Shown here piece after piece: positions 1-22,990 of a stretch of DNA of 64,000 nt. A model generated the notes under the pieces. That model had not been told where the DNA came from. It did not search any database and saw only the letters and a list, made by a program, of their open reading frames with translations. Positions within the stretch are counted from its first letter, which is position 1; every line of letters starts with the position of its first letter. The position numbers and the translations under genes were made by a program. Source of the DNA: Gracilariopsis chorda (Eukaryota; Rhodophyta; Florideophyceae; Gracilariales; Gracilariaceae); assembly GCA_003194525.1 (NCBI GenBank), contig NBIV01000004.1:1-64000 (forward strand), given 5' to 3'.

Positions 1-1331
1 CTCTTCCCGAGCTTTCGGACCTGCCCTGTAAGGGGGTTGTGCAACCGGTCGCGCACCGTGGATTAAATCGATCCGGTGTTCCGTTGCATCAATCTCGCCA
101 AGCGAGCCATCCCACATTGTGGTGAATTCCCGTAACATAGTACGGAGTTTGTCGCGGTGCGACTCTGGCACGTGGCTGAAGTCCAGCGCTTCAAGTGCTT
201 TTTCCGGATCAATCCGGTCATTGCTCGATGGAGCATGGTCCTGCGGAACAGGTGTGGTTCGCAATTCCGAGTTACTCGGTATGTTCGGCGCTGAAGTAGC
301 GGTTTCCTCCCCCTCCTTAGACTTGACGTCTTCGGACGGCGGGGCGAACTCCTCAGAAGAGGTGGTAACTCCGAGTACATCGGCGGCTGTCATCTTTGTT
401 GGCAGCATTCCCATAGGATGGGGGGTTACACTCCCAATTACTTGGTGTTTGACCAGATACTGGGGGTGTTTGCCAAGGTTGGCAACCAATATCCGGAAAG
501 GGACATCCGGGGAAATGGAGACAATTCCTTTAGCCAGCGCCAGCTGGGATTTCTCGTACAACGAGGCGAGGGGTTGTATAACCCGAAGACCGTGTTGACG
601 GGAATTTACCTGCACCCAGACTTGGGACTCAGCCGGTATAGAAACCGAGGCAGCGACGCGGAGCTTGGTGGACTCGCGGGACGCGGGCGGTGGTTCCTGC
701 GCAGCAGGGAGCGGAACTTGCTTCCGAGAGGACCACTTTAGCGGGTGGCGAACAATCGGAACCGACGATCCGTCTTCAAGTTCTACACGCCTGAGGCGGG
801 GCCTGATTGTGTCGACAAATCTGTCGCAGTAATCACATCCCAGTATGACTGGTGCTGCCAATGAACGGCAAACGATGAAGTCCAACTTCACCACAGAGGT
901 ACCAAGTCTCACGACGAGGTCCACTGTGCCCACCGTTTGTAACGGATTGTTGTTCGCATCCAAAATGTCGGGGACCGCGTCAGAGCGGATACGCGACCGC
1001 ACAAGCGGGGGTAACAATGATTCCACAACAAAGTTGGGGCCTGCACCTGTATCCAGGACGGTGAGAAACCTCACCATAAACTGGGGGTCAAGGCCAAGGT
1101 CGGCATAGACCTTATAATTGCGCTTGGCCAAGACCGAGACTCTACCGGGAATCCGGGGATTTTTACTCCGTATCCACGGGCGACGCAACACACCGAGGTG
1201 CGCAGAGTTTGCGTCAGCGGTGCCTTTCCTCGAGAGGACTTTCACTGGGAAGCGAGGCGAGGACGCCTCGGGCGCCAACAGCCCCGTTCTTGAGGACGCC
1301 TCTCCCAAAGGGGAGACTCTCTCAGTTAGTT
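1..1331 (-). CDS. Pro-pol polyprotein of element 1, protease part (partial)
   Basis: The minus-strand frame is open from the gag stop to the window edge and has no ATG of its own near its start. It contains a retropepsin active site, LDTGAGPN, near 1030-1055, and ends at the window edge in the linker before reverse transcriptase (PVAQPPYRAGPKAREE at 1-48). It aligns throughout with the protease ORF of element 2, for example LRRPWIRS and KRNYKVY. The frame is -1 relative to gag, and expression probably needs a ribosomal frameshift at about 1329-1334. Reverse transcriptase, RNase H and integrase should follow to the left of the window. The function (polyprotein maturation) is taken from the family. 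Confidence 0.85.
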
Positions 1332-1334
1332 TTC
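1301..1334 (-). promoter_or_regulatory. Candidate -1 ribosomal frameshift signal between gag and pro-pol (element 1)
   Basis: Minus-strand gag codons run GCG GAA AAC TAA. After a 9-nt spacer there is a 6-bp hairpin (TCTCCC, loop CTTT, GGGAGA; 1301-1316). Slipping back one nucleotide enters the open pro-pol frame. Element 2 has the same arrangement at the same place. The heptamer is not a textbook XXXYYYZ site, so the mechanism is inferred. Confidence 0.5.
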
Positions 1335-3500: not shown

Positions 3501-3582
3501 GAGAAAATACCGTTACGACGGGAAACGATCACGGAACTTCCGGTGAATGAAAACAAACCTCGTAAGAGGGAAAACAAAAACC

Positions 3583-3602
3583 GATTCTAGGTCGGGAGAC
3601 CA
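3583..3602 (-). promoter_or_regulatory. tRNA primer-binding site of element 1
   Basis: Three nucleotides inside the LTR the minus strand reads TGGTCTCCCGACCTAGAA. This is complementary to a tRNA 3' end finishing in GGGAGACCA, with T-arm-like sequence before it. Element 2 has the same site with one difference in 18 nt. I cannot name the primer tRNA. Confidence 0.6.
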
Positions 3603-3605
3603 CTT

Positions 3606-4414
3606 TGTGGTGCAATGCCCCAAAGGGGAAAAACACCGAAAGACGTCCGGGATCTTCCTCTCACGAGGTGAACCCAGTTGGGTAGAGCCCTCCCAGAGGT
3701 GTCACGGCGAAGCCGGTTTGTAAGACCAGGGACACCTATCGCGACTCGCGCAGGGAGGTGAAGGCGAAGAATCGGTATCCGCGTGAGCGGGGTGTGATCC
3801 TCAGTAGAGGTATGTTTCCACGTAAGTGGGGGGGGGTGTGAGCGGATGCGCACACGAGGGCCGCGGATAGCGGGAGGTGGTACCCTAAAAAGAGGAAAGA
3901 GGAAGGACGAAGTGGGTCGCGAGAGCGACGAGCAGATACGGCAATGCCGGTGGACAGGACTCCCTATACAGAGCGAAACACCAATATGATTGGAACAATT
4001 ATACTCCCAGTGATGGGTTTCTTTAGATGTGCAAGGGGGTTAGATATCCCGTGGTTTACGGCGTTTCCCTCCGAGGAGGAGTAGAGTACGCGCGCAAGCG
4101 GTAGCAACTAGAGCCAATTACCCAGGTTGGGGTCCCTTGTTGGGGAAGGTTTACTGGTGCGACGGCAGTGCGCCGTCGCACTAAGTACTAGCTTCCCAGA
4201 AATGGGTGTGAAAATAATAAATAAAATTAACTAAAATACTCCACATTCCGTGGCAACATCCACTACTGTGGCCAACCGCCAATTGACCCAAAACCGTGTC
4301 TCACGTGTCCATACCCACCATTGTGGGGCGTAGTTCATATACACACTACACAACCGATAATATCGGGAAAGCGTTCAAGTACCCAGAATCCCTCCCTGAG
4401 GGCGTTGCACTTCA
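3606..4414 (-). repeat. 5' LTR of element 1
   Basis: The plus strand reads TGTGGTGCAA... to ...TTGCACTTCA. It therefore has TG...CA ends inside a roughly 10-bp imperfect terminal inverted repeat, as in the LTRs of elements X and 2. The length is 809 bp. Internal blocks such as TTGGGTAGAGCCCTCC are shared with the 915-bp LTR of element 2. The outer boundary was set by this end motif and by similarity to the X LTR end, because the partner LTR is outside the window. Confidence 0.75.
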
Positions 4415-4545
4415 GAAAGGAAAGGAAAGAAGAAGGAACACAAGTCAACTTGGATTTTATTCGATACGATCGATGGAACACCGACTAGTCGAAGGACTAC
4501 ACTACGTCACAAGGTTGCACCCCCATGGTGAGGGAACACGCCCCC

Positions 4546-6393
4546 TTACGGGTTGGAACTGCCCCCACCTGAGTGGTTATTGCCCTGGAGTCGGGCTATC
4601 AGAGCATCCCGCATCGCGGTGACATCGCCACTGGCCTCGTTACTTCCCAGCCCCACTTGGCGGAGGAACTGAGAGATCACGGCAGCCTGACCCACAGGGG
4701 CCACGTTCGCCTCACCTGGCGTAGAGGACCCACCAGTGGGAAGACCGACCGACGGATTGGACAGCTGACTCGCAGGGGCGACTCCAGGAGCATCCATACC
4801 ATATGGTTCTCCCTCTGCCTCGGCGTGACCGGCACCTTCGTCGGGCTCGTTGTCAAACATCGGATCCTCACCGTCGTAGACGTTGTAGTACTCATCGGCG
4901 TCAACAAAACCGGTCGGATGCCCCTCGGGGATATATCTCGGTGCAAACCGGAGCTCGTTCGCTTCCTCCGCGGAGATCTCATGCCCCTCCCAAGGGTTGA
5001 AGTAGATGAAGTCACCCGCGAGCGGAGTTCGACGCCCTGGCGACAGGTCCTGTATCCGGCTACCGGCAGTACGCCTACTCTGCTCTAGAGGAACCGAAGC
5101 CCAGTCAACTTGGTCGATGAAATCGAGGAGCCCCGCTACTTCGTCAGCGTTTGCCTCACCACCTTGTGGGATTCGTAAGTCCAGCGCTCGGATGGCGGCA
5201 CGGACCCGCAACGGGATGAACCACAGTCTGTACTGGTCATAAACCTCCCAGAGGATGAAAGCAGCTGTGCGGACCGCCCATTCGGTGACCACCACGGACC
5301 ACAGCCCGGACTCAGGATCCCCGATGAGGTATGAGCCGTAATACGTGATCACAGGAGGCAACTCAATGTAGCAACCTCGGCACGCTTCGAGATGCGACCA
5401 CCACGGTGGAATCGGAACGTACCGACCCCGTCGGTTGACCACGCGGATGCGTTCGACTTCTACGTTCTGATACGGAATCAAATACCCGAATCGGGACCGT
5501 GCTCGCCGCTCAAAGCGTATCATCGACAAGAAGTTGGCCCTCGCTAAGCGACGCATATAGCGGAATTCAGCCCGAATGATCGGTCGTGTCCAGCACACCG
5601 CGTCTTGGCGCGCCGCGGGAATGCTTCTCCACAAGAGTGGTTCCAAACCCGTGAGGCGGTCGAGGTACCCCATTTCACCTTGGGTGCGATACAATCCGAT
5701 GTCGGAGCACATACCATCGGGGATGGGATACTCAAAGGGAGCCCGGCGAAGCCGTTGATGAGCGAGTAAGACCAACGCCGCGTGCGCGGAAGCTGCTGAT
5801 TCCCGACCCCGTCGGATTACCGTGTGCACGGGTATCGCTATGCGATTGCGCCAATCCCACGAAGTGGTCACGATTGCCGGAACGTCACCCGGGAGCATTC
5901 CGTTTCCATCGGTATACATCGCCAGAAGCGCATCATTGAACACCGCAGTCGGGTGGAACCACGGCGCCAGCCGGAGAGTCATTGCATGTTGCGAAGGCTG
6001 CAGCCCGACCAGCATGTCGTACGACGGCCACGCTGCCATTAGATACCCTCCCGTGGGAGCCGCACTCGCATTTGCGCCTGTTGGTTGCTAAGGAGTCGAG
6101 AGACCGCTCTGCGGTAGAGGCACGGAATGAAATCCGGAGAAGTACTGTAACGGTGTGTTGTTGCCGGCGTTGCTGTTGTTGTTGCTATTGTTGTTGTTGT
6201 TGTTCATCGTAGATGAAGGAAGCCGAGTAATCGGAGAAGAAGGCCGCGAAAGCGTACGTGTTGTCGGAAGAACCTCGGAAGAGTTGGTCGCAGATTCGCT
6301 GTTCGCAGCTAGGTGCTCGTTACCCAGAGTGGGATGGAGAACCGGCGAACCGGACTTACATTTAAGGACCTTTCCCGGTGCTTCCGTCGCCAT
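4546..6393 (-). pseudogene. Antisense accessory gene of element X, interrupted by one in-frame stop
   Basis: Read on the minus strand from ATG 6393 this is 615 codons with a single TAG at 6088-6090. The part after the stop is a 497-residue ORF (ATG at 6039). It matches the intact 613-residue antisense ORF of element 2 on both sides of the stop. Shared blocks include APWFHPT, RAEFRYMRR, RFERRARSRFGYLIPYQN, WEVYDQYRLWFIP and SPGRRTP. The C-terminal fifth is acidic and low in complexity, and the N-terminus has an Asn run. It starts 36 bp from the 3' LTR and runs antisense to the element. I know no family, catalytic motif or membrane segment for it. It could be a recent pseudogene, a readthrough gene, or be expressed from the downstream ATG. 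Confidence 0.7.
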
Positions 6394-6428
6394 CGTGGAT
6401 GTCGTATTCGCACCTCAGCAGGGGGATA

Positions 6429-7330
6429 TGAAGTGCAATCCTCAAGGAGGATTACTCAGCGATGCCCTGTGGACTTGATGTTTTTGCCGCTTTCGCGTGT
6501 TTATGATTACTACCGCTATTAGTGGGTGTCTCAGCCATCAGCGGATCCGCACTGTGCGCCAGGTGCACACCTGTGCATGCGCCGTGTGCCACCCAAGGCG
6601 TGAGTGGACCACGTGTGACACGGATAGTCAAGAGGAGGTTGGCACCACGGTGTGGACATTTAGTTAACTTATATTTAATATTCATTATTTATCTACGCTA
6701 CAGTAGGGAGATTACTACACTATATAGTGGCTCGGCGACCTCGCCCTGACACTGAGTAAACTTCCCCAACCAGGTTTCTTGGCTCTAAGTCTTTTCCGCT
6801 TTCGCGAGTCTTCTACACTCCTCGGAGGTAAAGCCGCGTTACTAACGGTAGACCTATCCACCCTGCGTCACTAGGAGTATCACCGCCTTGGGCACTTGTC
6901 ACTTAGTTCACCACCGCCGTGTTCTCGCCCCTGTATAGGGTTCCTTTGTACCTTTTTCCGTGGTCCCGTTGGCCCACACCCCCCTCGCCCCCAATCGGGC
7001 ATCCCCCGTATTTCCCTTACCCCACTCTCGTGGTTCCTACCCCTTTGTGTTGTTGCTCGTCACCGCTGACGCGTGTCTCTCGTGCCGGTATCCCGTGACG
7101 TCTTCCCCCACTTACGTGGACTCGTACTCCTTGGAAGGGCTGTTTTCCCATTCGTGGTGATCCTAATCCTACCGTTTCAACTCTCCCCGCTTGGCGTGAG
7201 GGTGAGCCTCGGCTTTACAACCCGACTTCGTCGTGCTCATCCGGAGAGGCTCCGCTCGCTGTGTTACCCTCCAGAGGGGAAGATTCCGAACGTCTTCGTG
7301 TGTTGTCCCGCTTGCGGGTATTGCACTACA
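6429..7330 (+). repeat. 3' LTR of element X
   Basis: This 902-bp LTR begins TGAAGTGCAATCC and ends GTATTGCACTACA. Its reverse complement resembles the start of the element 1 LTR (3606 onwards), with shared text around GAAGACG and ATCTTCC. That fixes its orientation opposite to element 1. A purine-rich tract lies immediately to its left. Confidence 0.72.
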
Positions 7331-7623
7331 AAACTCAAGATCTTCCTTACCTTGTTCACGAGCTTTCAAAAGCAGGCGATTTGTTTGGAGTACATCGATT
7401 CAGACCGATCTGTAGAAAACATGTTCAACGAAGTACTCTGATCAGTGCAAGGCTTCGTTTTATTCGATATAAGCCACCTCATTCCTGCAGAACCGTGATT
7501 TCTGCCAACCTTAGGCGTTCTTCCATGATGTAGCAGGTTTCCAGGAACTCTCCACATACACATGAGCTGAATCCGGTTCAGAACGACGTGTGCCTAGCAA
7601 GATATCAATCTGCTATAACTTCT
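7331..7623. other. Gap between element X and the MULE reading frame
   Basis: About 290 bp with no recognisable gene. It presumably holds the 5' flank of the MULE transposase. I found no terminal inverted repeat here. Confidence 0.4.
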
Positions 7624-10600
7624 ATGCAAGGGAGGCTTAAAGAATGGACTGCAAGGAAGGTATTCCAAGACACGACCATTCCCTGGGATGTATCCGAAGC
7701 GACTCTGGTTCCATTTCACAAGAGGCCGGTTCCTTGTGTGGGCGTGATGTCAGCAAATGTCTCGAATGGTGTAGAGGACGTAGGGTGTACAACTGCTCAG
7801 AGCGGAAAGGAATGTACGAATGCGATGAGTACTTCGAAATACGCTGAGGATGTAGGAGTCCGGATTATTGCTCCTAAAAGTTTGGCTGAGGAGAGAACAA
7901 CTTCAGAAGTTGGGGAGGTTGTCACAGATACATGTCCAATTCCAATCAAGAAGGTAGGTTCTGTGCATAACACAATCTTGGAAAGTGGGAGAACTGGTTT
8001 CGGTACAGTGGACAGCTCAGATGCATGCTCAGATCAGAGAGAAGTTGAACTTAGCCTCCCCTTTGTTCTTGACGAAAAAACTGAGCAACATTCTGGCTTG
8101 CGAAAGCAAGGTGAACCCTCTGCGGATTCAGACAGCTCAGATGAAGGAGGAGTTGAAGACGCGTCACTGCTTATAGACACATTTCTTGAAGATGAGCAGC
8201 CACCGCCGTACAAACTTTTTCACGGTGTTGAAAGTTGTGACTCTCAGCGTGAATTTCTCGACCAGATGACTACAGCAGAATCAACAGGAGAGAAAAAATG
8301 TGAAACAGAGAGCTCAGACAATTCATCAATTGAGATAAGGCGCATGGAGGAAGGTGAAGCTCTATTCAAGAGAGCACTAAGCTCATTCGTCTCAGGCTTG
8401 GAAGAGAACGCCTCAGGCAACACAGCTCTAAAATAAATTCAGTTTATTGGTAATTGCTTTGGGTACCAGTTCCGCATTCGTGACTCGCCATATCATAAGC
8501 ACATTCCAGCAGCTACTGCAAGTCCGGACAATACTGATGGTGACTGGGTACTTAAACGTGCATTCGTAGAGTGCAAAATGCGGGGATGTGCTTTCTCTTT
8601 CATCTTAAAAACCGTCAATACGCTTTCGGGTATGGAGGACGGCGATAACACTTTGAAGGGGTATAGATGCAGAATGTGGAACTGGTCTCACAATCACGAG
8701 CCGAACCCTGAGCTGACCATGGACAGGCTACAACCAAAGCTTCAGAAGGAAGCGTTGGAGATGAAAAATGAGCTTTATATACCTTTCACACACATCATCC
8801 GACTTTTGGAGGCAAAGTACAAGGTCTCAATCGACACAAAGAGTTTACGAAACAAGATATCATATGCAGAGGGGGTGAATTACCCACTCCAGGAAGAGTG
8901 CATGAGACTTTGTAAGGAACTGATTGCTATCAGAGACGAAGATTCTCAGAATCGGGTATTTCTCACGGTTGGCGAGGAAGGCAGAATGGATTCAGCGGCG
9001 TGGACGTATAGAGAGTGGATGGATGACTACGCACGATACGGATTTGTTCCCGGTATAAGTATCGATTGTAAAGCCATATCCAATAGATTTGGACTTCCGC
9101 TACCGACCATTAATGGCAGAGCAAACGATGGCTGTGTGCTGACTTTCTTTATGGCCTTTATATCCACTGAAACCGAAGAAAGCTTTGTGAGAATACTATC
9201 GCAGTTTCGTTCTGTTATTCAAGTTTCGCCTGCAATGATCGCCATGGACCAGAGTACGCCGTGCATAAACGCCACTAAGAAGGTTTTTCCGACGTCATAC
9301 ATTGCCCTTGACGAGTGGCACCTTAACCAAAATCAACTTCGTAATTGTGGGAGCTGGTGCTCAAAGATCGGGCATAAAGGAATTTCGGAAGAAATGTCGA
9401 GGGACCTCTTCATCATGAGGCAAACAAGAACAGAAAGAAAATTCATTTCCAGGCGGAATGATTTCGAAAGAAAGTACTTTTATCAGTTTCAACAAGAGCC
9501 GCCACAATGGTTTAGGTTTTTATATCACAGGAATGCTGAAATGATCGTTGCGTACTATCGCAATCGACTCGTTCCATTTCGTTTTCTCTTCCAGGGGACA
9601 GGTTACACCGAATGCTCAAACTCTTCATACCGCAGAAATATTTTGCAACGCAAAGTACGGCTATGGAAGATACCCAGCGAGATGCTTCGCCTAACCAAAA
9701 AAAAGCCGCAATAATCGATTAGCTTCGAGAACCAAAGTGTTGAAGCCCCAGAGCCTAACCCACCGGAAGATCACAACCTGCCAGCTGCCGATACCGCGAG
9801 CAGTGCTTGATAAGCTCATCACCGAGTACACTGCTTACTCCTTGCACAAATTCGTAGACCTCAGCGTCAATCCAAGTAGGAATTGCGTCGTATTGGACGC
9901 AACTACTGAGCCAATGACTGGTGCAAGGTGGCCTGATACCAGATTTGATGATGAATGTGTCCTAGGAACAGTAGTGGTATTCTCCTTAAAATGGTTAGGA
10001 ACATTACAATCCGGTCATGATAATTTGGAGACAATACGAGCCCCAGCACCGATCTACGAAGTATTTCTCACGAACTTTCCCAAGCGGACATACAATTGCG
10101 ATGAAGTCCTTGTGGGAGCATGCACCTGTGGTCAACATGCCGTGGCCGGCTTTCCATGTCGACACATAGCTAGGTGTGCTGTCACGTACCCAGAGCTTCT
10201 TTACCAGAAGCCGCAGTTACACAATTTCCTTGGCAGCCGAGTGCATCTGGAGACTCTGTTTGACTCGTACTTGAAACAAAACGACGACGAAACAACAAAG
10301 ACCCATCTATCAAGTATCAGGCGGAAGATCGGAAGAGAACATGCACAGTCCACACAATCAGATTCCAGAAGCGAAGGGGCCACAACGGAGGATGAGGATA
10401 TGTACTGGGGCAACATCAATTTGCAGATCAATGAAGAGGTAAAGACGTACTTGTCTTGGTCTGATGGCCGGGCAATGTTTGATAAGATACATCGTTTAGC
10501 AACGGAACTTGGACCAATCGCACTTCGCAGCATTAAGATCCTGTTAGAGAGTTCAATCCAAGCTCTGGCGAAAGGCAGAGCCCCAATTCCTCCTACGAAC

Positions 10601-10882
10601 CATGTCCAAGTGAACTCTGAGTTCAAAAAGATCTTATCGGGCCAGAAAGAGGATAACGATGGAATTTTTTATACCATTCAAAACCCAAACATGGGTCTAA
10701 CTCGCAACCAAAAGCGCAAAAGAGGATGCATGGAAGTTGTGAAGAGAAAACGTCCTCGACGGTCAGAGCAGCCGCATCTCCGTGGATCCCAGATATCGTC
10801 ACAGAGTAACGTTTCCAAGGAGGACCATGGAGCCTCAACTGTGATTTCTAGAGACGATGTGAATGGCGCAATTGACAAATGA
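7624..10882 (+). pseudogene. MULE (Mutator-like) transposase, broken by a stop and a frameshift
   Basis: Three consecutive ORFs form one transposase. The N-terminal part (7624-8436) is acidic and Ser/Glu-rich and ends in TAA. The same frame continues at once with a FAR1/WRKY-GCM1-like zinc-finger region (8437-8720, CKMRGC...HNHEPNP). The MULE transposase core follows at about 8950-9420, with candidate catalytic Asp in GISIDC and AMDQST and the motif EWHLNQ. At 9697-9704 a run of eight A breaks the frame. One base of shift opens the next ORF (to 10882), which carries a SWIM zinc finger CTCGQHAVAGFPCRHI near 10125-10172 and a basic C-terminus. MULE enzymes cut and paste DNA flanked by inverted repeats; no such repeats were found. 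It lies between two retroelements. Confidence 0.85.
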
Positions 10883-11415: not shown

Positions 11416-11420
11416 ATCTC
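11416..11420. repeat. Target-site duplication of element 2, left copy
   Basis: ATCTC precedes the left LTR and is repeated directly after the right LTR at 22986-22990. Five base pairs is usual for Ty3/gypsy integrases. Confidence 0.9.
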
Positions 11421-12335
11421 TGTGGTGCAATCCCGGTGTGGGAAAGGCACCCAAGGCAGCTCGAAGCCTTGCTCTCTTGGAGAGGTAGGCCCAGCTGGGT
11501 AGAGCCCTCCGTGTCCCGTATGACGGGTGTAACTCCGTCGGGAGCCTGGATGTACCTCGGAGGTTTAGGGGTTAGAACGGGTCGGAACCACGGCTGGTAC
11601 GGAAGTAGCCTGCGAGCAGGGGAACAAAAGAGGGAAAGGGACCACCCGACGGGGGCGTGCGGAAAGCGGGAACAGACCCCGGAGGGGGGTGCCGATACAC
11701 ACACACGAACACGCGCCGCGCGGCGGTTAGGGGATATGAGGGGAAGAGATGGTCTCACGGTCTCACGACACACGTCGGTAATATCAATACCCAAAACTGG
11801 GGCGGAGATAGGGCCTGTACGGGCGGTCACACGACAACAATGAATACCACGAGTGGTCACAACCCACTGGGTACGACGAGCACGGTCTCCTCGGTGGTGC
11901 GAGTCGGGTGAAACTACCGGGCAAGCGATGTACCTCCGCGAGGAGTTAAACACTTCGCATGGCGAATAGAGTCAGAGCCGAACTCTCTTTTTTCTTTTCT
12001 TGGTGAGCTCGCCGTCGTGCGGCCGACGCTCAAGTACTAGTTCAGTGCAGTACAGTAGGTAGTGCACTAGCCTAAGTAAAATTAACCCCTAAACTACACT
12101 AAAATAAGTAGCCATTTTGGGCCTCCTGGCCGGGGCTGTAGCCACGTGTCCACCACCCTTGCCAGGCAAGTACCACAAAATATGAATGTTCCCATAACCA
12201 CCCTGGGTAACCCGACCGCTAATTAGCCCGGTAAACGGGGGCTAAAATTCATGCATCCCGCTTCATCGCTCGCACCGAGTACACCTCAGATATGAGTTTC
12301 ACCATCGCCCGTACGCGGGAATGTATTGCACTACA
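11421..12335 (-). repeat. 3' LTR of element 2
   Basis: 915 bp, plus-strand ends TGTGGTGCAA and ATTGCACTACA. It is nearly identical to 22071-22985; differences seen include TGCGAGCAGG versus TGCGAGAAGG and TTAGGGGATATG versus TTAGGGCATATG. The accessory gene starts 51 bp inside from this LTR, so any promoter driving it probably lies in the LTR, transcribing opposite to gag-pol. Confidence 0.95.
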
Positions 12336-12337
12336 CA

Positions 12338-12352
12338 TCCCCCTCCTTAAGG
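12338..12352 (-). promoter_or_regulatory. Polypurine tract of element 2
   Basis: The minus strand reads AAGGAGGGGGATG immediately before the 3' LTR. This is the expected site for plus-strand DNA priming. Element X has a similar GGGGGAT tract at the same place. Confidence 0.6.
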
Positions 12353-12385
12353 GCCGAAAACGAACGTGAGCATAGGCGTGAGGAG

Positions 12386-14227
12386 ATGAGGCGCGAGGGT
12401 ATAAGTAGTCCCGACAAGGGAATTGCCGAGATACTGGTCCCCCGTACCAACACGGTTACAACTGATCAACCCTCAGTACCTTCTTCAACAGACTCTGCGC
12501 CCCTCTCTGCTATGACCAACACTCCGTTTTCGAACAACCCGCCTGCGGGCGCCCCGCAGGGGACTTCCGCGAGCGGACAACCTTCCTCCGCGACGGCGGG
12601 GTTGCGGGTTCGTCACCCAACCTCTGGGTTCCTCTCCTTGCCTCTGCCTGGAGGATCGTCTCATGTTCCAACCTTGGATGCCTTGGATGCTGCGAGTATC
12701 GCCGCCTGGAATTCCGCTCAAGCGATACCGATCACTGCGACCGCCGCCGGCTGGGTGTCACCATCGACACTTTGGGCCCGCAATCCCCGGGAAGACGCTC
12801 TCCTCTTTTCGCGTGCGCCCTGGTTCCACCCCACATGGGTTTCCGACTCGGACCTCATCGACTCCTATGTGGAGGAGGGCGAGCTCCCAGGGGGACTAGG
12901 CCGGAATTTGGTCGACTCCTTCGACTGGAGGACGCGTATCGCTGTAGAGCCACAGTTCGTCGCACGGAAGCGCACCAGATATGGTTTCGAGACGCTGAAT
13001 GAAGCCCGTGCCGGGATGGCCAAGGTCGCCTACGACCGTCTCGCCCGCGCGAGTTATCCGGATGAGCTGATACCAATGGAATACAGCTTTGACCTCTCGC
13101 GGTACCGTACGTACGGTGACGTCTCATACTGCGAGAACCTTGCTGCCTACCAGCCATCTACACCGTTCCGGTCCACTCCAATAGAAGCCGGGATGCTCCT
13201 CTGGAGGCGCCCAATTCTGCGTGCAGAGTTTCGATATTTTCGTCGTCCGAATCATCGCGGATCCTTCTTCGACCGACTCCGGTTTGAGCGAAAGGCGCGC
13301 TCCCGCTTCGGGTTCCTGGTACCATACCAAAATCTCGAGGTCGAGAGGCTCCGTCCATCCGCGATGCGCGGCCAGTATGCACCTCTTCCCCATTGGTGGA
13401 GCAGGTTCAAAGTCCCGAGGGGATGCTTTGCGGAGATGCCTCCGTGCCTCAGCTACATCGGTTCACGATTAATCAACAATCCGGATTCCGGTTACTGGAC
13501 TCTCTTCCTCGCCGAATGGGCTGCTCGCGTTTCCGCGTTTCTCCTCTGGGAGGTGTACGACAAGAACCGTCTGTGGTACATTCCTCCTCACCTACGCCAG
13601 GTTATCCGCCGATTGGATCTCTATATCCCTCTGGGATCCGAAGCCAATGTGGATGAGCTTCAGTGCCTTCTGAATACCATCTATATGGTTAACTGGGATA
13701 CAGTACCAGCCTCCAACGTCCCTGACGGTGAGCCTTCCAGGCATGATCGCTCTCCAGGCCGGAGAAATCCAAACGCTGGCAACTTCGTCTTCTATGACCC
13801 TTGGGAGGTATCCGTGACTTCACGGGCTCACGCGCTAGCGTTACGCGATGTACCACGCTCCGTTCCGCGAGGCCACCTGGTTGGGTTCATGTTTTCCGAT
13901 GACTGGCACGGTTCCTACGAGGATGATCCAATGGTGGATGACGACCCCGATGAGGTGGAGGAGGCCGTAGCCCCGGGAGCGGCGATGGTCGACGATCTCG
14001 ACGGATCCGGCCAGCATGTGGCTGCTCCAGATGGCTGGAATATGGCCGCCAGTGCGGCTGCTTCTCCGTCTACCGCATCTCCGGTCCCCGTGGACCCTCA
14101 GGCCGTTGCCCTCAGGGCTCACCTCCAGTCCATTGGAGTGGTTGCGCCTTCCAACCTCACCAGCGTGAGCGAGTTATTGGCTTTCGCGTCTGCGAACTAC
14201 CAACCGCCAACGAGCGGCTCATCCTAA
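12386..14227 (+). CDS. Antisense accessory protein of element 2 (unknown family)
   Basis: This intact ORF of 613 residues starts at ATG 12386, 51 bp from the 3' LTR, and runs antisense to gag-pol. The N-terminal 120 residues are Ser/Thr/Pro-rich. The core (about residues 125-510) is rich in Trp, Tyr and Arg. The C-terminus has an acidic stretch (DDDPDEVEEA) and a Ser/Pro/Ala tail. The core is conserved in the element X copy: APWFHPT, RPILRAEFRYFRR, RFERKARSRFGFLVPYQN, WEVYDKNRLWYIP, SPGRRNP and PWE. I see no signal peptide, membrane helix, zinc finger or nuclease motif and recognise no family. Conservation between clearly diverged elements argues that the protein is made. Some plant retrotransposons carry antisense ORFs, but I see no sign that this one is related. 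Confidence 0.85.
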   Translation: MRREGISSPDKGIAEILVPRTNTVTTDQPSVPSSTDSAPLSAMTNTPFSNNPPAGAPQGTSASGQPSSATAGLRVRHPTSGFLSLPLPGGSSHVPTLDALDAASIAAWNSAQAIPITATAAGWVSPSTLWARNPREDALLFSRAPWFHPTWVSDSDLIDSYVEEGELPGGLGRNLVDSFDWRTRIAVEPQFVARKRTRYGFETLNEARAGMAKVAYDRLARASYPDELIPMEYSFDLSRYRTYGDVSYCENLAAYQPSTPFRSTPIEAGMLLWRRPILRAEFRYFRRPNHRGSFFDRLRFERKARSRFGFLVPYQNLEVERLRPSAMRGQYAPLPHWWSRFKVPRGCFAEMPPCLSYIGSRLINNPDSGYWTLFLAEWAARVSAFLLWEVYDKNRLWYIPPHLRQVIRRLDLYIPLGSEANVDELQCLLNTIYMVNWDTVPASNVPDGEPSRHDRSPGRRNPNAGNFVFYDPWEVSVTSRAHALALRDVPRSVPRGHLVGFMFSDDWHGSYEDDPMVDDDPDEVEEAVAPGAAMVDDLDGSGQHVAAPDGWNMAASAAASPSTASPVPVDPQAVALRAHLQSIGVVAPSNLTSVSELLAFASANYQPPTSGSS

Positions 14228-15347
14228 GTCAGGATCCTGGACCGTGGCACACACACCTGATATAGGTTCGCGCTTAACGCTCCATAGCTTGTGGTAAACG
14301 ACTTCCTTCTTCTATATCCGTATGTTCGGACTCTTCTTTTTTTCTTCTTCATAGCATCTTCATGCTGGACCGCTAGGCGGTATTCTTCATTAAACCTTTA
14401 CTTCGGTCGGTCCGCTAGGCGGTGTGACGTCCAATCACCATTGGTTTCCCTATCCAGTCCATTACTTCGTGTAATCTTCTGTAGCCAGATCTCTTCCTGT
14501 GTCCTCTTCTCTTCGGAGACTTCTCTTCCGTCTTCGGAATCTTCTGCATAGTGCAGTGTATCGTCCTACCCAACCTGGGCCATGTCCAAAGTGGATAGGA
14601 GTGGGAACCGCGTCCGGCGGTGGTAGGTTATCACCTTGGAACGAGGAAGGTGCTGAATGGGCTCCCATGTGTCCTCTTCCGGGGGTATCCGTACCATCGG
14701 ACCTGGTAAAACCACACTCCTTTGGAGTCCAGAACATGATCCAAGATGTGGTCAACGACAAACTCCTGGTCGTACGTAGCCGGCTCCTGACCCGTCATGG
14801 CAGGGCTTAAGGGGAGAAACCTGTGAGGGGACTTGCCTGAAATTGGCGCGACCTTGCGGGCAAAGTCAGTTTTCCTCGACGCTGCGAGTGCTGGGACTTG
14901 ATACCGCATTGCGGTCTTTCCGCTTCCTAATCCTCTCCTTGTGGGGGGGCCTTCCGTTCTAACCGGATTCCCCTATTGACTCGCAGCTCGCGAGCTCTTC
15001 TCCCACGCGACCCGTGCAACTCTGGTGAGTTTGACCGTTCACGGTGAGGGAGGCGGTTCACTACGGTTCCGACGCCAGGAGGCGGATTGCCATGCATCAC
15101 ACACTGTGATTGGCTGGCCCCTGGCGGCAAGTGTCGCGCGCGGTCTTTCTACGACGCGGGTCTTGACTGTACTCCTGACGCCGGCCGGCGGTATGTACGT
15201 GTACACCTTTCCACGGTTTGGAATTTCGGGCTTCATCCGCGTGACAGTGGCGTCACAGTGTCCATTTGTGGGGCTCTGCGGTAACGCACGCAGTGTCAAC
15301 CACACTCTCCGTGTCCGCGGTTGCTTTTCAGCTCACCACGAAACTGG
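14228..15347. other. Element 2 internal spacer between accessory gene and pol
   Basis: It holds the chromodomain remnant (14615-14780) and otherwise degenerate sequence. The two genes face each other here, so the 3' ends of sense and antisense transcripts probably lie in this interval. Confidence 0.5.
14615..14780 (-). pseudogene. Chromodomain remnant downstream of integrase, element 2
   Basis: The minus strand encodes EFVVDHILDHVLDSKGVWF, then VRWYGYP. After a frame change it continues EEDTWEPIQHLPRSKV. Together these match a chromodomain (conserved aromatic and WEP positions), which chromoviruses carry at the integrase C-terminus to target chromatin. It is separated from the pol ORF end (15348) by roughly 570 bp with stops, so it is not part of an open frame in this copy. 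Confidence 0.7.
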
Positions 15348-18300
15348 TTATGACCGAGCTTGTATGTGCTCCGTGCTCGGAGATATCATTCGCCACATTA
15401 GTGACCACACCGAGTCCGGTTCATTACTTCCTCCTTCGCTACCCAGCGACTCGCTCGACAGGGGTGCATCCGGGTCCGCGGAGACGGCCTTCTCGCTTCG
15501 TGATGCGTTCAACTCCTCCCTGCTCCGGGGGTGCTCATCAGACGATGCCGTATTCCCGATGCCGGCTCGTCCACTGTTCCCAACCTTCTCCCGTGCCGGG
15601 CTTACCACGCGTTCCGTGACGGCAGTACCCTTGCTCTGAAGGGCCTCGGTTAGCGCAGAGTGCGGCGCGAGGGAACTTGCTCGCGAAGCCGTATGAAACG
15701 GGAAACCGTCCGACGCTGGAGCTTCCTTCCGCGATGGCGCGATCGATTCCCGTCCCTCCCCCTCCTTAGGTGAGAGGGCGGTGGGTTCAGGCTGAAGGAC
15801 CTCCGCGGGCGGAGTAACGGTTAGGCGTTTGGGGTCAAGCGTGCGTTGCATGATACGCGCGGCGCGCTCAACCGGTTGATCGGCAATCGGAAGATCCGAG
15901 AGTCCCCGTTCCGGGTGCGGTAAGACGGGTGGGCGGGACGGAAGCAGATTATCCGTTGGCGGAGTTACGAGGTCATCCTCCGGGATTGTCACGAGCGGTG
16001 ATGAGCCCTCAGGGGGCGCAGGCGCGTGGGCTACGCGGTCGCGTGAGACGCGTTCGAACTGGTTATCGATGTCCAGTACGACTGTGTCGTCGGCGACGGA
16101 AACCACCCGATAGGGTCCATTCACTATCGGTGACAACTTGTGGCGCTTCTCCTTTTCGGGATTATAATATTCCTTTCGCAGGAAGACAGAATCCCCTTCC
16201 GAGACCTGGGGTATCGGGGTACGAATCTTCGCGTCGAAGTTCTGTTTGTATGCCTCCTGGGCTTTTCCCATAGCCTTTCGGGCGGTAGGGACCATGTTCT
16301 TCAACCATTCCTTCCAGAAATCTCGATATAACATTGGTGAAGGGTACCCCGAGACGTTCGGTTGCGCTTCAATAGCCATGGGTGGCGGAATCCGAGACAG
16401 GACCAGCTCAAATGGAGCGAGGGTCGTGACCCGGTGTACCTGGGTGTTATACGCGTACGTAATAGCGTCCGTGTACAAGTCCCATTCCATGGGGTGATCC
16501 GAAACATACGCGCGCAGTGCGTTGAGCATAGTACGATTGAATCGTTCCACTTGTCCGTTACACTGTGGGTGGTAAGTGGTAGTAAACATATTCTTGATTC
16601 CCAAGATTCTACATACGTCCTGAAAGAACTTTGAGGTAAATTGAGATCCGTTGTCGGAGAGTAGATGTACCGGCGGGCCGTAAGTAAAGACCCAGTGGGT
16701 TACGAACGCACGCGCAACCACGTCCGCGGTAATCCGTTTAAGCGGTACTGTTCTCACCAACTTTGAGAAGCGGTCAGTAATGACGAGAAGATACTTGTAA
16801 CCACGTTTGGTTTTGACAAGCTCGCCCAAGATATCAATAGTGACATATTCGAGTGGCGCCCGTGCCGGGAATCGTGTTAACTTCTTCGAGTACTTCCGAA
16901 GTTTCACATTATTCTTCGCACATTCCACGCACGAGCGGCGAACTGCATAGGAGTCAAATGCCATAGCAGGCCAATAGAAGTCCCTGCGAAGGGTCAGGTA
17001 TAGTTTCCTCCCGCCGGGATGTGCACCCAACTTCGCGTAATGCGATAGATGCAAGACGCGCTGCTGCAGCGTGTGAAGTACAACGATCTGTGGGGCCCGC
17101 GTCAGCGACCTGACTAGGTAGCCTCGATCGTTCACCGCAAAGGGTATCTGTGCACCCCCGTTAAGACGGGCACGAATCTGGGCACAGAAAGGATCCTGCT
17201 GTTGTTCACGGATCATTTCCTCAGAGGATATGGGAACAACCTGGCCATCCGGAGGATCCGTAGGGCTTGCAGCCATAATATCATCACAGATGTCATCCCC
17301 ATTCACGCCTGGGTCGTCTTCTTCCGTTCCCTCCGGGGATTTTGCCATGAAACATGGTATTTCCAGATCGTCGACCGGTTCGGTTTCCGCTGATGTTCCT
17401 AAGCGCGATAGGGCGTCAGCCTGAGTATTCAGGGATCCCTTCTTGTAGAGGACATCAAATGTAAATTCCGAGAGTCGGAGACGCCAACGCATGAGGCGGC
17501 CCGACGGTTCTCGAATTTCGAGTAGCCAACGGAGAGCCGAGTGATCGGTGTGAACCTGGAAATGGTTACCCATAAGGTATGGGCGAAGCGTTGCCAACGC
17601 CCAAACAACAGCAAGACACTCCTTCTCGGACACCGAGTAGTTGCGCTCGTGAACGTTCAACGAACGTGACCAATATCCGATCGGATGTCTTTCTCCTTCT
17701 TCCGTGACTTGAAACAACGCACAACCCACCTGGTGGGCACTTGAGTCAGTATCCACTTCGAAGGGTAAGTCCGGGTGCGGTAAGGCCAGAACTGGCGGGG
17801 ACGTTACAGCGTCGACAAGAGACGAGAATGCTGACGACTCAGCCTCGTCAAAGACGTCCAGTTCGGTGGGTTGTCCTTTCCAGAGGAGTGCGTTAAGCGG
17901 TGCTGACAAGTCGGCGAAGTTCGGGACGAGTCGGCGATATACATTGCAAAGTCCTAGGAAGGATCGAAGCTCCGTTTGATTAGTCGGATGTTTCGCCTCT
18001 CGAAGTGATTTCACTCTTGCTTCATCGATTGAAAGCTGTCCAGGGCGGATGATGTGTCCCAGATATTTTACCGAATCGGCGCAGAACTCACACTTTCCCA
18101 GCTTCAGGGTGATGCCCGCGTTGCGGAGCACTGTCAAGACTTCCCGGACATGGGACAGGTGATCGTCCAAGTTATTGGAGAACACTATAATGTCGTCCAA
18201 GTATACCAGACAGCTGGTCCATTTGAACCTCGCCAAGGGGATATCGATTGCCCGTTGGAATGTAGCTGGGGCATTCGTCAGTCCAAACGGCATTCGCTTA

Positions 18301-18700
18301 AAGCGATATAGTCCTTGATGGCACACAAACGCGGTCTTATCACGATCTTCTTTCCTAATAGGGACCTGCCAGTATCCCGAATTGGCATCAAGGGTAGTGA
18401 ACACCGTGGCGCTCCCCAGGGAGTCAATGTACTCGTCCATTCGTGGAATCGGATAGACGTCCTTGACTGTAACCGCATTCAGGCGGCGGTAATCCACACA
18501 GAAACGCCATGATCCATCCGCTTTCGGAACAAGGACAACAGGAGAAGCCCAAGGGGATTGTGCTGCTTCGATAACTCCAGCTCGCAGCATCTTCTCCACC
18601 TGAGATTTCTCTTCCCCCCTTGCTTTAGGGCCTGCCCGATACGGGTGCTGTGCAATAGGCCGTGTATCCGGCAACAAATCAATCCGATGTTCGGTTACCT
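15348..18700 (-). CDS. Pol of element 2: reverse transcriptase, RNase H, integrase
   Basis: An open frame of at least 1109 codons, with no ATG at its start because it is the continuation of a polyprotein. Reverse transcriptase carries KADGSWRFCVDYR, FGLTNAPATFQ and the YLDD active site. RNase H follows (EVDTDSSAHQVGCAL, EKECLAVVWAL, VHTDHSAL). Integrase has an HHCC zinc region (HYAKLGAHP...CVECAK) and the DDE core (VTIDILGE, LSDNGSQFTS, GQVERFN). A long Pro/Ser/Glu-rich tail ends at 15348. Compared with element 1, 28 nt are missing just upstream (near 18714), so this part is out of frame with the protease. The enzyme could only act if complemented or reached by another frameshift. Confidence 0.92.
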
Positions 18701-19881
18701 CTATCGTCCCCAGGGAACCGTGTCACGAAACTTCTCACGATGAGATTCATTAATGTGATCCAGATCCAACTTATCCAAAGCCTGTTCTGGGTCTAACGCA
18801 GTATCTGCCGATGCTGAAGTCGTGCTTTTCTGAGCTTCTTCGACAGTCGAATCTGAACTTTCCCGGGCGGAATCCAACAGAATGAACGGGACCTCCTCCC
18901 CTTCCTTAGGGTCTTGTATTCCGAGAACGTCGGATATCGGAATCTTTGTAGGAAGGATAGCCAACGGATGCGGGATCATGTTGCCCAGGAACTGGTTTTT
19001 AACCAACCACTGAGTGGTAGTTCCGAGGTTAGCAACGAGAACCTTAAAGGGTTTGTCCGGCTCGACGGATACTATCCCATTTGCTAATGCGAGACAGCGC
19101 TGTTCGTAGAGCGAGGGGAGCGGTTGAACAACCTGCAACCCGTGGTGTTTGGATGTTACTGAGACCCACACCTGAGATTCCTTCGGGATCGAAACTGGTT
19201 CCGCGACGCGAATCTTCGTAGATGCTCGATCCACATTGCACGCTTCCTGAGCAGCAGGTAAAGGTACCCGTTTACGGGAGGCGTGTCGCAAGGGCTTCCG
19301 TACAATCGGGATGGTCGAACCGTTGGCCAATTCCACGGATCTGGAGCGAGGGCGGATAGCTTCCACGAAGCGGTCACAGAAATCACAACCGAGGATGACC
19401 GGTGCAGCAAGAGAATCGCATACGATGACGTCCAACTTCACCACGTAGGTGCCTAGTCTGAGTACCAGAGGAATTGTTCCAAGAGTCTGGAGCGGGTTGT
19501 TATTAGCGTCCGCCAGATCCAGACTTGGACCAATGCGAATGCATTTCCACATGGCGGGTGGAATAATCCCGATATTGATCAGGTTCGGAGCGGCACCTGT
19601 ATCCAGGACAGATAACTGACGAACCATGAACTGGTTAGAGAGACCGAGGTCACTATAAACTTTATAGTTCCTCTTGGCCATTACCAAAACTCGATCCGGG
19701 ATGCGGAGGTTACGGGACCGTATCCACGGACGACGCAGAGCCACTAAGTGGTCCGAGCTCCGGTCTTCTTGAGCCAGTTTCCTCGTAAGGATTTTGGCAG
19801 GGGAGCGAAGCGGTGGCGCCTCAGGCGTCTTCAACTTCGGCTTGGAAGACACCCCTCCCGTGGGGGAGACTGCCAAGACTA
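18701..19881 (-). CDS. Protease part of pro-pol, element 2
   Basis: This frame opens where gag ends and has no proper ATG; the first usable codons after the slip site lead to LVLAVSPTGGVSS. It encodes the retropepsin motif VLDTGAAPNLI near 19590-19620 and ends at TAG 18701 because of a 28-nt deletion relative to element 1, before reverse transcriptase. The frame is -1 relative to gag, as in element 1. A stem-loop (CTCCC, loop CCAC, GGGAG; 19855-19868) starts 10 nt after the gag stop. Confidence 0.8.
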
Positions 19882-19888
19882 GTTTTTC
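19855..19888 (-). promoter_or_regulatory. Candidate -1 ribosomal frameshift signal, element 2
   Basis: Gag codons read CCG AAA AAC TAG, then a 10-nt spacer and a 5-bp hairpin with a 4-nt loop. Stop position, the AAAAC run and the hairpin all match element 1. Confidence 0.5.
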
Positions 19889-21921
19889 GGGACCGAATCG
19901 ACCGCTGGGTGCGGATGAGCCCGTTCCGAAAGGTTTGGGTTGTTACCGTTCGCGGTTTTCGCGGCTTCTCGAGCTTGAGCATTGTGGACCGCAGTCTTTG
20001 CGTCTTCATACGAATTACTCGGGACACGAGCCTTATGCTCCGGTGGGAGATTCTCATAATTTCCCACGATCTTCCACATCTCGCGAATGGGGAGGGTACA
20101 CTGCGACTCAGTATGACCTTCAAGGTAACAAATGTAGCAAATCAGCGGGGCTGAACGTGTTCCGGTGGCGTGGGACATCATTTCGCGGTGCTGAGGGTGT
20201 TGTGGTTGTAATGCTAGTTGCTTCGGGTTGGACTATCCCGGGCGGGAGTGTCGTGTGGCACTCGACGCGTAGGCTAGCGGGGCTGGGGGAACTCGACCGG
20301 GGTTTGCGTAAAAGGCCGGATCTACCACGGGTGGTGTAACCGTGGACGACAGTTCCGAGGTTGCCAACGACTGTTCAAGACTGCCAAGATACTGGATGTT
20401 ATCCGCAAATCCGGAAGGTGGTCCCGGGTTAGGGAGAGATGCCGAGGAAGCCTCGTTCTCGACGAAGAGAGCCTTCGACGACCGACGCCTCGGGTCTCTC
20501 GCTCTGAGGGTGTCACCCTCAGCCTGCGCGTACTGGACCAGTTCCAGATACGTTGCATTGCGCTTCTCTTCCCTGTAGCGGGACACCAGTGCCCTGATAC
20601 CAGGATCTAAACCATCCACCAGCATGGAGCAACGCTCAAAAGCGGTAAACACATTTCCACAACGATGAAACGCTTTATTCAAGCGAGTTGAATACGACGT
20701 TTCCGTTTCACCAGGCTTCTGTTTCGTATCGCGAACCGCCACGATGGCTTGACTGATTGCAGTTCCCGTCGCGTACGACCTGAGCAGGTAGTGTACAGCC
20801 TCGGGCCAGCACGTAACACCTCCTTCTGAGGCCCTGGACGAACCCCTGACCGAGTTGTACTGATCTTCAGCCATTCCTGAAAGAAAGTAGGGCAAGGCAA
20901 CGTATGCCTGCGCCTTACTCATTTCGAGTACGTGTGCTCCCTGCACAAAGCGGGCCAGAAAATCCAACACGAGGATCGGATCTTCACCGGAGAACTTCTG
21001 CTTAAACATCGTCACATTCATACGACGTATGAGATCCTTCACCCGACCGGTGTCTCTCGAACTTCGAGTGCCCGAAGAGTCTTCCAATCGGTAATAACGA
21101 TAGGACAACAGCTTCCTGTAAAGGGGATTCGTCGGTTTCAATTCCTTCAAGCCGAGATGACGGCGACCTTTCTCCCGCGCACGGATTGCTCCATGGGAGG
21201 TGTAGGTAGCCCTCGAACTAGGTTCTTCTCCGCGACGGTGGCCTCTCCCTTCACGCGATGATCTCGAAGGCGAGCTACTCGAACTTGTTTCCGAGTCGGA
21301 ACTTGACGAAACTTCATAACGATGAACTCTCTTTCCAGGGTGACGGGGGATGTGACTGGAGCGGTGTTGGGTTGAGATGACCTTCACTTCCTCCTGTCTC
21401 GGAGCGTTCAGGTCTTCTCTGAGCAACGCTTCCAGCGTGTCCATACGTCCGGTTGCCCGTATCATATGGGTTTTAACTTCCTCCACGAACTCCCGATATC
21501 CTTCTACGAAGGCAGCCGGAGTACCCAGACACTCCAGAATGGAATTCACATCAGCTCTCAGGAGACGAATATCTCCCGAATAATCCCGAGCCAGGGAGTC
21601 ACTCCATCGCCGTTCCAACTCGGGAACTTACTGCGAGAGGGAGGCGTGGGCCACATTGGCAATGTCGATTCTCGACTCGAGGAGATGGTACTTAGGCGAC
21701 CCGGGTCTCGGGGGGACGGCCGACGGCGTTTCGACCACCGGAGGTGGCGTAGTGGCCACAGCTGTCACGGCTCGAGGCACCGAGGTTGCCGATGGGATTC
21801 CTTGGGATTCCAGACCGACGGCATCGGTAAGTAGTTGTTCCGGAACGGACCTTCGTGATCTCGCCGCTGCGGCGTTCCGTTGCGGACCATTCCTGGGGGA
21901 ACTCGGAGCTGTGGGCAGCAT
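19879..21921 (-). pseudogene. Gag of element 2, two in-frame stops
   Basis: The frame aligns with the 724-residue gag of element 1 but is cut by TAA at 21628-21630 and TAG at 20233-20235. The TAG replaces the Trp that follows ..RPG in element 1. The middle ORF (20233-21618, 461 residues) carries the gag-like helical region. The short third part (19879-20181) carries a CX2CX4HX4C zinc knuckle (CYICYLEGHTESQC). Without readthrough no complete gag is made, so this copy would need particles from another element to move. Confidence 0.8.
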
Positions 21922-22047
21922 ACTGCAGATAGCCGTCCACGGCTTACTTCACCAGTCCCACGGCTTGGGAATCTCAACGAATGAGCGAAAAGGGATAAAA
22001 GGGAAAAGGGGAAGCGGACTTCCGACAGGCCGGATTGAAAGCCAAAC

Positions 22048-22068
22048 CCGTTCTAGGTCGGTAGACCA
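22048..22068 (-). promoter_or_regulatory. tRNA primer-binding site of element 2
   Basis: Two nucleotides inside the 5' LTR the minus strand reads TGGTCTACCGACCTAGAA. This matches 17 of 18 nt of the site in element 1 and is complementary to a tRNA ending GGTAGACCA. The primer tRNA is not identified. Confidence 0.6.
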
Positions 22069-22070
22069 CT

Positions 22071-22985
22071 TGTGGTGCAATCCCGGTGTGGGAAAGGCAC
22101 CCAAGGCAGCTCGAAGCCTTGCTCTCTTGGAGAGGTAGGCCCAGCTGGGTAGAGCCCTCCGTGTCCCGTATGACGGGTGTAACTCCGTCGGGAGCCTGGA
22201 TGTACCTCGGAGGTTTAGGGGTTAGAACGGGTCGGAACCACGGCTGGTACGGAAGTAGCCTGCGAGAAGGGGAACAAAAGAGGGAAAGGGACCACCCGAC
22301 GGGGGCGTGCGGAAAGCGGGAACAGACCCCGGAGGGGGGTGCCGATACACACACACGAACACGCGCCGCGCGGCGGTTAGGGCATATGAGGGGAAGAGAT
22401 GGTCTCACGGTCTCACGACACACGTCGGTAATATCAATACCCAAAACTGGGGCGGAGATAGGGCCTGTACGGGCGGTCACACGACAACAATGAATACCAC
22501 GAGTGGTCACAACCCACTGGGTACGACGAGCACGGTCTCCTCGGTGGTGCGAGTCGGGTGAAACTACCAGGCAAGCGATGTACCTCCGCGAGGAGTTAGA
22601 CACTTCGCATGGCGAATAGAGTCAGAGCCGAACTCTACTTTTTCTTTTCTTGGTGAGCTCGCCGTCGTGCGGCCGACGCTCAAGTACTAGCTCAGTGCAG
22701 TACAGTAGGTAGTGCACTAGCCTAAGTAAAATTAACCCCTAAACTACACTAAAATAAGTAGCCATTTTGGGCCTCCTGGCCGGGGCTGTAGCCACGTGTC
22801 CACCACCCTTGCCAGGCAAGTACCACAAAATATGAATGTTCCCATAACCACCCTGGGTAACCCGACCGCTAATTAGCCCGGTAAACGGGGGCTAAAATTC
22901 ATGCATCCCGCTTCATCGCTCGCACCGAGTACACCTCAGATATGAGTTTCACCATCGCCCGTACGCGGGAATGTATTGCACTACA
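22071..22985 (-). repeat. 5' LTR of element 2
   Basis: 915 bp direct repeat of 11421-12335. It is upstream of gag on the minus strand and should carry the promoter for the genomic RNA. I could not place a TATA box or transcription start with confidence. Confidence 0.95.
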
Positions 22986-22990
22986 ATCTC
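22986..22990. repeat. Target-site duplication of element 2, right copy
   Basis: ATCTC follows the right LTR and matches 11416-11420. Confidence 0.9.

Follow-up and report, generated by a model that had tools for sequence, protein, structure and literature searches.

Results and Discussion

The window analysed here, a stretch of 64,000 nucleotides from the red alga Gracilariopsis chorda, contains a long open reading frame that lies inside an LTR retrotransposon and runs against its gag and pol genes, which raises the question whether this frame is a genuine gene of the element and, if so, what its product might do. An earlier note, made from the letters of the window, had described an intact ORF of 613 residues, antisense to gag-pol and next to the 3' LTR of the second element in the window (element 2), and we could confirm the ORF, its strand and its place. 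It reads from an ATG at 12386 to a stop at 14227 on the plus strand and has 613 codons. The other five frames across 12386–14227 carry 13 to 22 stops each and their longest opening is 178 codons, which rules out that sense-strand coding was misread as antisense. A chance ORF is ruled out as well, by the evidence from position, frame and substitutions given below.

Element 2, which belongs to a subfamily that we call A, is a complete Ty3/gypsy element (11421–22985, coding on the minus strand). Its 3' LTR (11421–12335) and 5' LTR (22071–22985) are 99.2% identical across 915 bp, start with TGTGG and end with TACA, thus showing the TG..CA ends, and are flanked on the two sides by the target-site duplication ATCTC (11416–11420 and 22986–22990). 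The pol frame (15348–18677, minus strand) shows the Pfam domains RVT_1 (4e-38), RT_RNaseH (9e-37) and rve (1e-14), and reverse transcriptase, RNase H and integrase follow each other in the order usual for Ty3/gypsy elements; with 1124 codons it is shorter than the 1490 codons seen in many other copies. The open frame at 18701–19876 (minus strand) has no protease match in Pfam and contains a DTG motif, which we take as the sign of a protease, and it is 55% identical to the corresponding region of the first element in the window, element 1. The gag frame (20233–21618, minus strand) is named by its position, having no Pfam match, and has 461 codons compared to 724 in its element 1 relative. The earlier note had taken it as a hint of selection that the antisense gene stays open although gag is broken; the gag frame is indeed the shorter one, but a single young open copy makes a weak argument for selection.

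The antisense gene and pol converge and are separated by a spacer (14228–15347). On its other side the gene faces the U3 edge of the 3' LTR at 12335, and the polypurine tract (12338–12348, minus strand, seen as a pyrimidine run on the plus strand) lies between U3 and the antisense ATG, which is found 50 nt from the inner edge of the LTR. The frame itself stays open for about 30 further codons upstream (643 instead of 613) and so reaches into the LTR, and this extension contains no second ATG. As the ATG is that close to the LTR and none follows further up, the anatomy suggests that the mRNA starts in or beside U3.

A homologue with the same layout is present in another element of the window, element X, where the gene is found on the minus strand with its ATG near 6393, next to a polypurine tract (6415–6428, plus strand) and a 3' LTR (6429–7330, plus strand) with the ends TGAAGTGCAA..TTGCACTACA. 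Regarding this homologue, described before as having 615 codons, place and orientation hold, but the ORF is not intact: the 615 codons counted from the ATG near 6393 include one in-frame stop in the N-terminal part, and the uninterrupted part (4546–6039, minus strand) has 497 codons from an internal ATG, or 513 from stop to stop. In many other X copies (six of the seven others compared) the frame extends about 120–135 codons further upstream; frame lengths in our main compilation of X copies are read through stops within the match. A TAA eight codons before the stop of the window copy is found in 25 of the 30 X copies fetched and at the equivalent place in two more, so that three of them, including the one in the window, lack it. 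The sequence blocks cited earlier as common to the proteins of elements 2 and X are present in both, and their LTRs are largely different as had been claimed, since a blastn comparison of the X LTR with those of elements 1 and 2 gave no match, and the LTRs of elements 1 and 2 share only 127 bp at 73% around the inner edge.

Element 1 belongs to subfamily B and its 5' LTR (3606–4414, minus strand) adjoins the 3' end of the X antisense gene, suggesting an insertion into X; it appears to have inserted just past the end of this gene (4414–4546). Its gag is located at 1326–3500; identity is 96% both between its protease region and that of a B element on contig C50 and between part of its LTR and a sequence next to a B pol on contig C32. 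The region separating element X from element 2 also holds remains of a MULE-type DNA transposon (7588–10882; MULE E 6e-10, SWIM E 0.09 and thus below the cut-off).

A protein search of the 91-Mb genome with the element 2 gene gave at least 72 places of subfamily A (75 matches before three short N-terminal fragments were removed), of which 56 span residues 1–613 and 47 of these 56 have no internal stop. With the X gene as query at least 62 X places and at least 24 B places were detected (87 matches, one fragment dropped). Two related database proteins served as further queries, P0002 and P0003, whose best matches in this genome reach only 48% and 37% and which therefore most likely come from other genomes. 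P0002 revealed further B, D-like and E-like places, and P0003 D-like places and the A places again; after matches of different queries at the same place had been merged by hand, the P0003 search added only two new places (on contigs C305 and C355). Gracilariopsis chorda thus harbours at least five subfamilies of the gene (A, B, D, E and X), where the labels D and E, assigned from match order and frame length, each cover several near groups.

The position of the gene relative to pol is conserved throughout, with the gene downstream of pol and on the opposite strand in 94 of 95 neighbouring pairs. In subfamily A, a listed gene lies within 6 kb of 41 of the 62 pol matches listed, in every case in this arrangement and with gaps mostly near 2.14 and 2.28 kb. 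The B and D pol queries gave 127 listed matches, 54 of them with a listed gene within 6.5 kb, and here 53 of 54 pairs show the same arrangement (21 X, 17 D, 11 B and 4 E), with gaps mostly clustered within each subfamily. The sole exception is a B pol on contig C189 next to an E-type gene that is downstream but on the same strand. Among the matches listed, 21 of the 62 A pols and 73 of the 127 pols from the B and D queries are without a listed gene; these seem to reflect incomplete match lists, contig ends and some copies that are gene-less.

The 3' LTR and polypurine tract adjoin the gene in A and X, where the ATG lies 35–50 nt past the inner edge of the LTR, and a matching LTR edge and tract are found in E. 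In the D stretch that we fetched we recognised neither an LTR edge nor a polypurine tract, so the argument for a start in U3 draws on A, X and E. The pol of subfamily B carries a C-terminal chromodomain (Chromo, E 1e-9, residues 1750–1791 of the 1814 encoded by L065:187-5628), and at least this subfamily thus bears the mark of a chromovirus; the A and D stretches scanned, which may be incomplete, gave no chromodomain. The B chromodomain comes after a long linker.

Is the protein under selection? Between the five subfamilies its identity is 32–57% in local alignments, with dN of 0.40–0.90; for the nine of ten pairs with computable dS, dN is 0.40–0.80, dS 2.0–4.2 and dN/dS 0.15–0.32, ratios that are rough as dS is saturated. 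Third codon positions are the most divergent ones in all ten pairs. Within subfamilies we compared private variants (seen once), which arise mostly after insertion, with shared ones, using the aligned non-coding flanks of A as the neutral spectrum. In 25 X copies the private variants (85 synonymous versus 197 nonsynonymous) gave a nearly neutral ratio of 0.93, whereas the shared variants (50 versus 35, at an expected synonymous fraction of 0.287) gave 0.28 (p 7e-9). For this test five of the 30 fetched copies were excluded (L052, L055, L058–L060); with L052, L055 and L059 restored (28 of 30) the shared ratio is 0.33 (p 6.5e-9). In 30 A copies the ratio was 0.77 for private variants (56 versus 110, p 0.07) and 0.56 for shared variants (14 versus 20, p 0.07), the latter not being significant, and the plain pairwise ratio within A is 0.76 because most A variants are private. 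A first neutral spectrum built from two LTRs with 5 variants, which had given 0.39 (p 1.5e-5) for shared X variants and 0.78 (p 0.29) for A, was replaced by the one from aligned flanks. The tested copies were those with the highest protein scores (30 of 72 A and 30 of 62 X places), a choice that favours conserved copies, but we do not think that this ranking explains the contrast between private and shared variants.

These substitution patterns support purifying selection on the antisense protein. The earlier note had suggested such selection and proposed dN/dS across copies as the check: the values between subfamilies speak for it, as does the difference in X between private variants and shared ones, while the raw ratio within A and the non-significant shared A variants do not. 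This is what is usually seen for a gene that is needed in the active lineage and decays freely once a copy has been inserted. Between A and B the identity is 38% for the antisense gene, 50% for gag, 55% for the protease region and 67% for pol, the antisense gene being less conserved than gag and pol and of the same order.

P, S, T, G, A, N and Q are abundant in the first 150 residues of the protein. A conserved middle part (about 140–500) includes a basic, aromatic-rich stretch (about 251–350), and after it come an acidic stretch (residues 501–550 of A hold 16 D or E but neither K nor R) and a conserved C-terminal segment. Across 17 sequences 16 residues are invariant, among them six Arg, three Gly and two Trp, and frames of about 500–660 codons are open across the saturated divergence between the subfamilies. 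The description as an unknown family was borne out in the family and PDB sequence libraries searched, which gave no convincing match. PDB sequences showed none at E up to 5, PHROGs none for the three proteins scanned, and Pfam/NCBIfam only weak matches of single members among eight (for example DUF6220, E 0.09, and FEA1_rel_lipo, 0.18), which we treat as chance. A viral, prokaryotic or plasmid source was rejected, with no confirmed relative in IMG/VR (two peptide patterns, 15 candidate stretches), GTDB species genomes (nine stretches) or plasmids (query P0001).

Relatives in the protein database number three for A, the same three for an eight-sequence alignment and nine others for B, the last including BWQ96_03215 from Gracilariopsis chorda and FGB62_50g12 from Gracilaria domingensis. 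A 17-protein tree unites A with P0001 (100/99) and D with P0002 and P0008 (95/96), and joins B, weakly, to the Gracilaria domingensis protein (80/68). The subfamilies are thus interleaved with proteins of other assemblies, including, with this weak support, Gracilaria domingensis. BWQ96_03215 (contig C30) is publicly annotated as a hypothetical protein although it is a member of the element gene family, and from its listing among the host proteins it follows that host gene counts may include element genes.

Four pols without a listed gene were sampled, two A copies (C47 and C128) and two B copies (C32 and C681). The copy on C47 does carry the gene (93.9% over 66 residues), and contig C128 stops too early to show its presence or absence. 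In subfamily B 10 of 56 pols are paired among the matches listed, and in both sampled B copies a whole gene is missing from the expected place. The C32 sample, 200 nt taken there (L067, C32:151101-151300), is B LTR (96%), which, judging from these 200 nt, may be a separate LTR inserted there. On C681 (L068, C681:8322-8521) the polypurine tract and the LTR start adjoin a 54-nt piece of the gene start, and the distance to pol is about 1.1 kb less than in the C50 copy that bears the gene, leaving no room for a whole gene. The pols of both copies are open over the matched stretch and 99% identical to that of C50. The antisense gene is therefore probably dispensable in cis in subfamily B; these copies count against essentiality and are compatible with a supply in trans.

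The elements are also rich in tiny hairpins. Perfect hairpins with a 5-nt stem and a 3–6-nt loop occur 2.5–5 times more often than expected from wider spacings in 10 of 12 element stretches, coding and non-coding (taken from 1–4414, 4415–7330 and 11421–22985 of the window and from L062 and L064–L066). The excess is weaker in the element 2 LTR (1.8) and the E gene (1.5), and host DNA and the MULE show 1.4 and 1.6. Compared to synonymous shuffles it holds, with z 3.2 to 13, for the antisense genes of A, B and D as well as for both gags, the RT–integrase part and the B pol; the E and X genes, the protease region of element 2 and four of five host genes show no such excess, and the fifth host gene has z 2.0. 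The hairpin signature of gag-pol is thus shared by the A, B and D genes, in line with a long residence in the element, and is absent from the E and X genes. Regarding the cause, enrichment is slight for stems of 6 nt, and stems with wobble pairs or mismatches are not in consistent excess on one strand or the other; the wobble result leaves RNA structure unsupported. Post-insertion mutation was rejected as a source because among copies hairpins are gained less often and lost more often than expected at random. Template switching during DNA synthesis is a candidate cause (PMC8794818).

Taken as a whole, we consider it somewhat probable that the frame represents a true accessory gene, belonging to a lineage of Ty3/gypsy elements in red algae, whose protein acts in trans as a regulator of the element. 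U3 would then hold an antisense promoter, the mRNA would start in or very near U3 of the 3' LTR, as the anatomy of A and X suggests, and it would be complementary to the 3' part of the genomic RNA. A common promoter motif was rejected, as just one 9-mer recurs in three or more of the five upstream stretches compared, and its distance from the LTR edge differs between them. The protein with its basic, aromatic-rich middle and acidic stretch may regulate the element in trans, with the DNA or RNA of the element itself as its most likely target (in transcription, export or escape from silencing), a nucleic-acid or nuclear role being suggested by composition and by analogy with plant elements. Gene-less copies would live off gene-bearing ones, and the two B copies with open pol and no whole gene point to either supply in trans or dispensability. 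More tentatively, we can imagine a red-algal gene driven from U3 that is independent of those in plants and fungi, has an undescribed fold and is supplied in trans, for example against silencing, with the gene-less copies as parasites; this fuller picture is possible, but we would not call it probable.

The two B copies could also be read as cheaters that escaped a self-restriction factor limiting copy number, either similar to p22 of Ty1 or an antisense-encoded repressor, since without a whole gene they keep an open pol 99% identical to that of the gene-bearing copy, and the antisense placement would permit expression apart from gag-pol. We regard this as unlikely: p22 is Gag-derived, but a Gag relation of the antisense protein was rejected (hhalign probability 0.1 against two gag frames), and a self-limiting gene should be lost repeatedly, whereas this one is kept in five subfamilies across saturated dS.

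Red algae have pit connections, and a structural, movement or envelope-like protein could assist particles or RNA in crossing cell connections or in leaving the cell. Env-like genes occupy this same position between pol and the 3' LTR (PMC7264820). Such a role is nevertheless improbable given the antisense orientation, the searches made, which gave no relative among viral contigs or phage families, and the hydropathy of the protein, which shows no convincing transmembrane segment: the best 19-residue values are 0.95–1.30 in four subfamilies, and the 1.85 of D is found in a segment with charged residues.

The annotation of BWQ96_03215 as a Gracilariopsis chorda host gene might suggest that the elements captured a host gene and carry it along by chance or because it serves an unrelated function, but we give this little credence, as BWQ96_03215 groups inside the element gene family, no curated family matched convincingly, and an element-specific position conserved in five subfamilies argues against chance carriage. 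It is hardly credible, finally, that the antisense RNA is what matters, through dsRNA with the genomic RNA as raised for plant elements in a review (PMC7264820) and as the overlap of the antisense mRNA with the 3' part of the genomic RNA in the convergent layout would permit, with the ORF a by-product, since selection appears to act on amino acids (shared X variants are mostly synonymous and third positions most divergent) and long frames stay open across saturated divergence.

Returning to the accessory gene as the preferred reading, its layout is of a known kind. Antisense ORFs between pol and the 3' LTR are described for Grande, RIRE2, Retand, PvRetro13 and the fungal element Boty (PMC7264820, PMC11963269), and the plant ORFs are a standing puzzle to which no function is assigned. 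Lying between pol and the 3' LTR and antisense to gag-pol, the red-algal gene has the layout of the aORF-3R class (PMC7264820). Retand ORF4, which encodes TRP28, shares this place and orientation; it is present in recently active copies across species, and a regulatory role has been proposed for it (PMC11963269). The red-algal protein differs from TRP28, as Transposase_28 (pfam04195) gave no match in eight members at E up to 5, and Retand belongs to a non-chromovirus lineage of flowering plants whereas red-algal subfamily B has a chromodomain. HBZ of HTLV-1 is a bZIP protein, unlike the red-algal one, since family members gave no bZIP match in the Pfam/NCBIfam scans; we liken the two for antisense expression from the 3' LTR region of a retroelement and do not propose HBZ as a relative. 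For HTLV-1 an antisense promoter in the 3' LTR is mentioned in the same review of plant elements (PMC7264820). Gene23 of Grande and the ORF of RIRE2 have the identical place and orientation and are likened here by layout alone; gene23 is described as a nuclear protein transcribed from a promoter upstream of the gene (PMC7264820), while the A and X genes are so near the LTR that their promoter should lie in U3. Boty from Botrytis, again likened by layout alone, extends the arrangement beyond plants (PMC7264820) and differs in its fungal host. By layout the red-algal gene is thus of the same kind as these, and its protein is not TRP28 of Retand. In open-licence PubMed Central we found no paper on such a red-algal gene, the Gracilariopsis chorda genome paper not being among the matches.

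Conclusion

That elements of red algae encode, in the same place and orientation, a protein free of the Retand domain points to more than one origin of this layout and to some useful role for it. With many young copies and an apparent mix of gene-bearing and gene-less B copies in one genome, Gracilariopsis chorda offers a natural comparison for the function of the gene.
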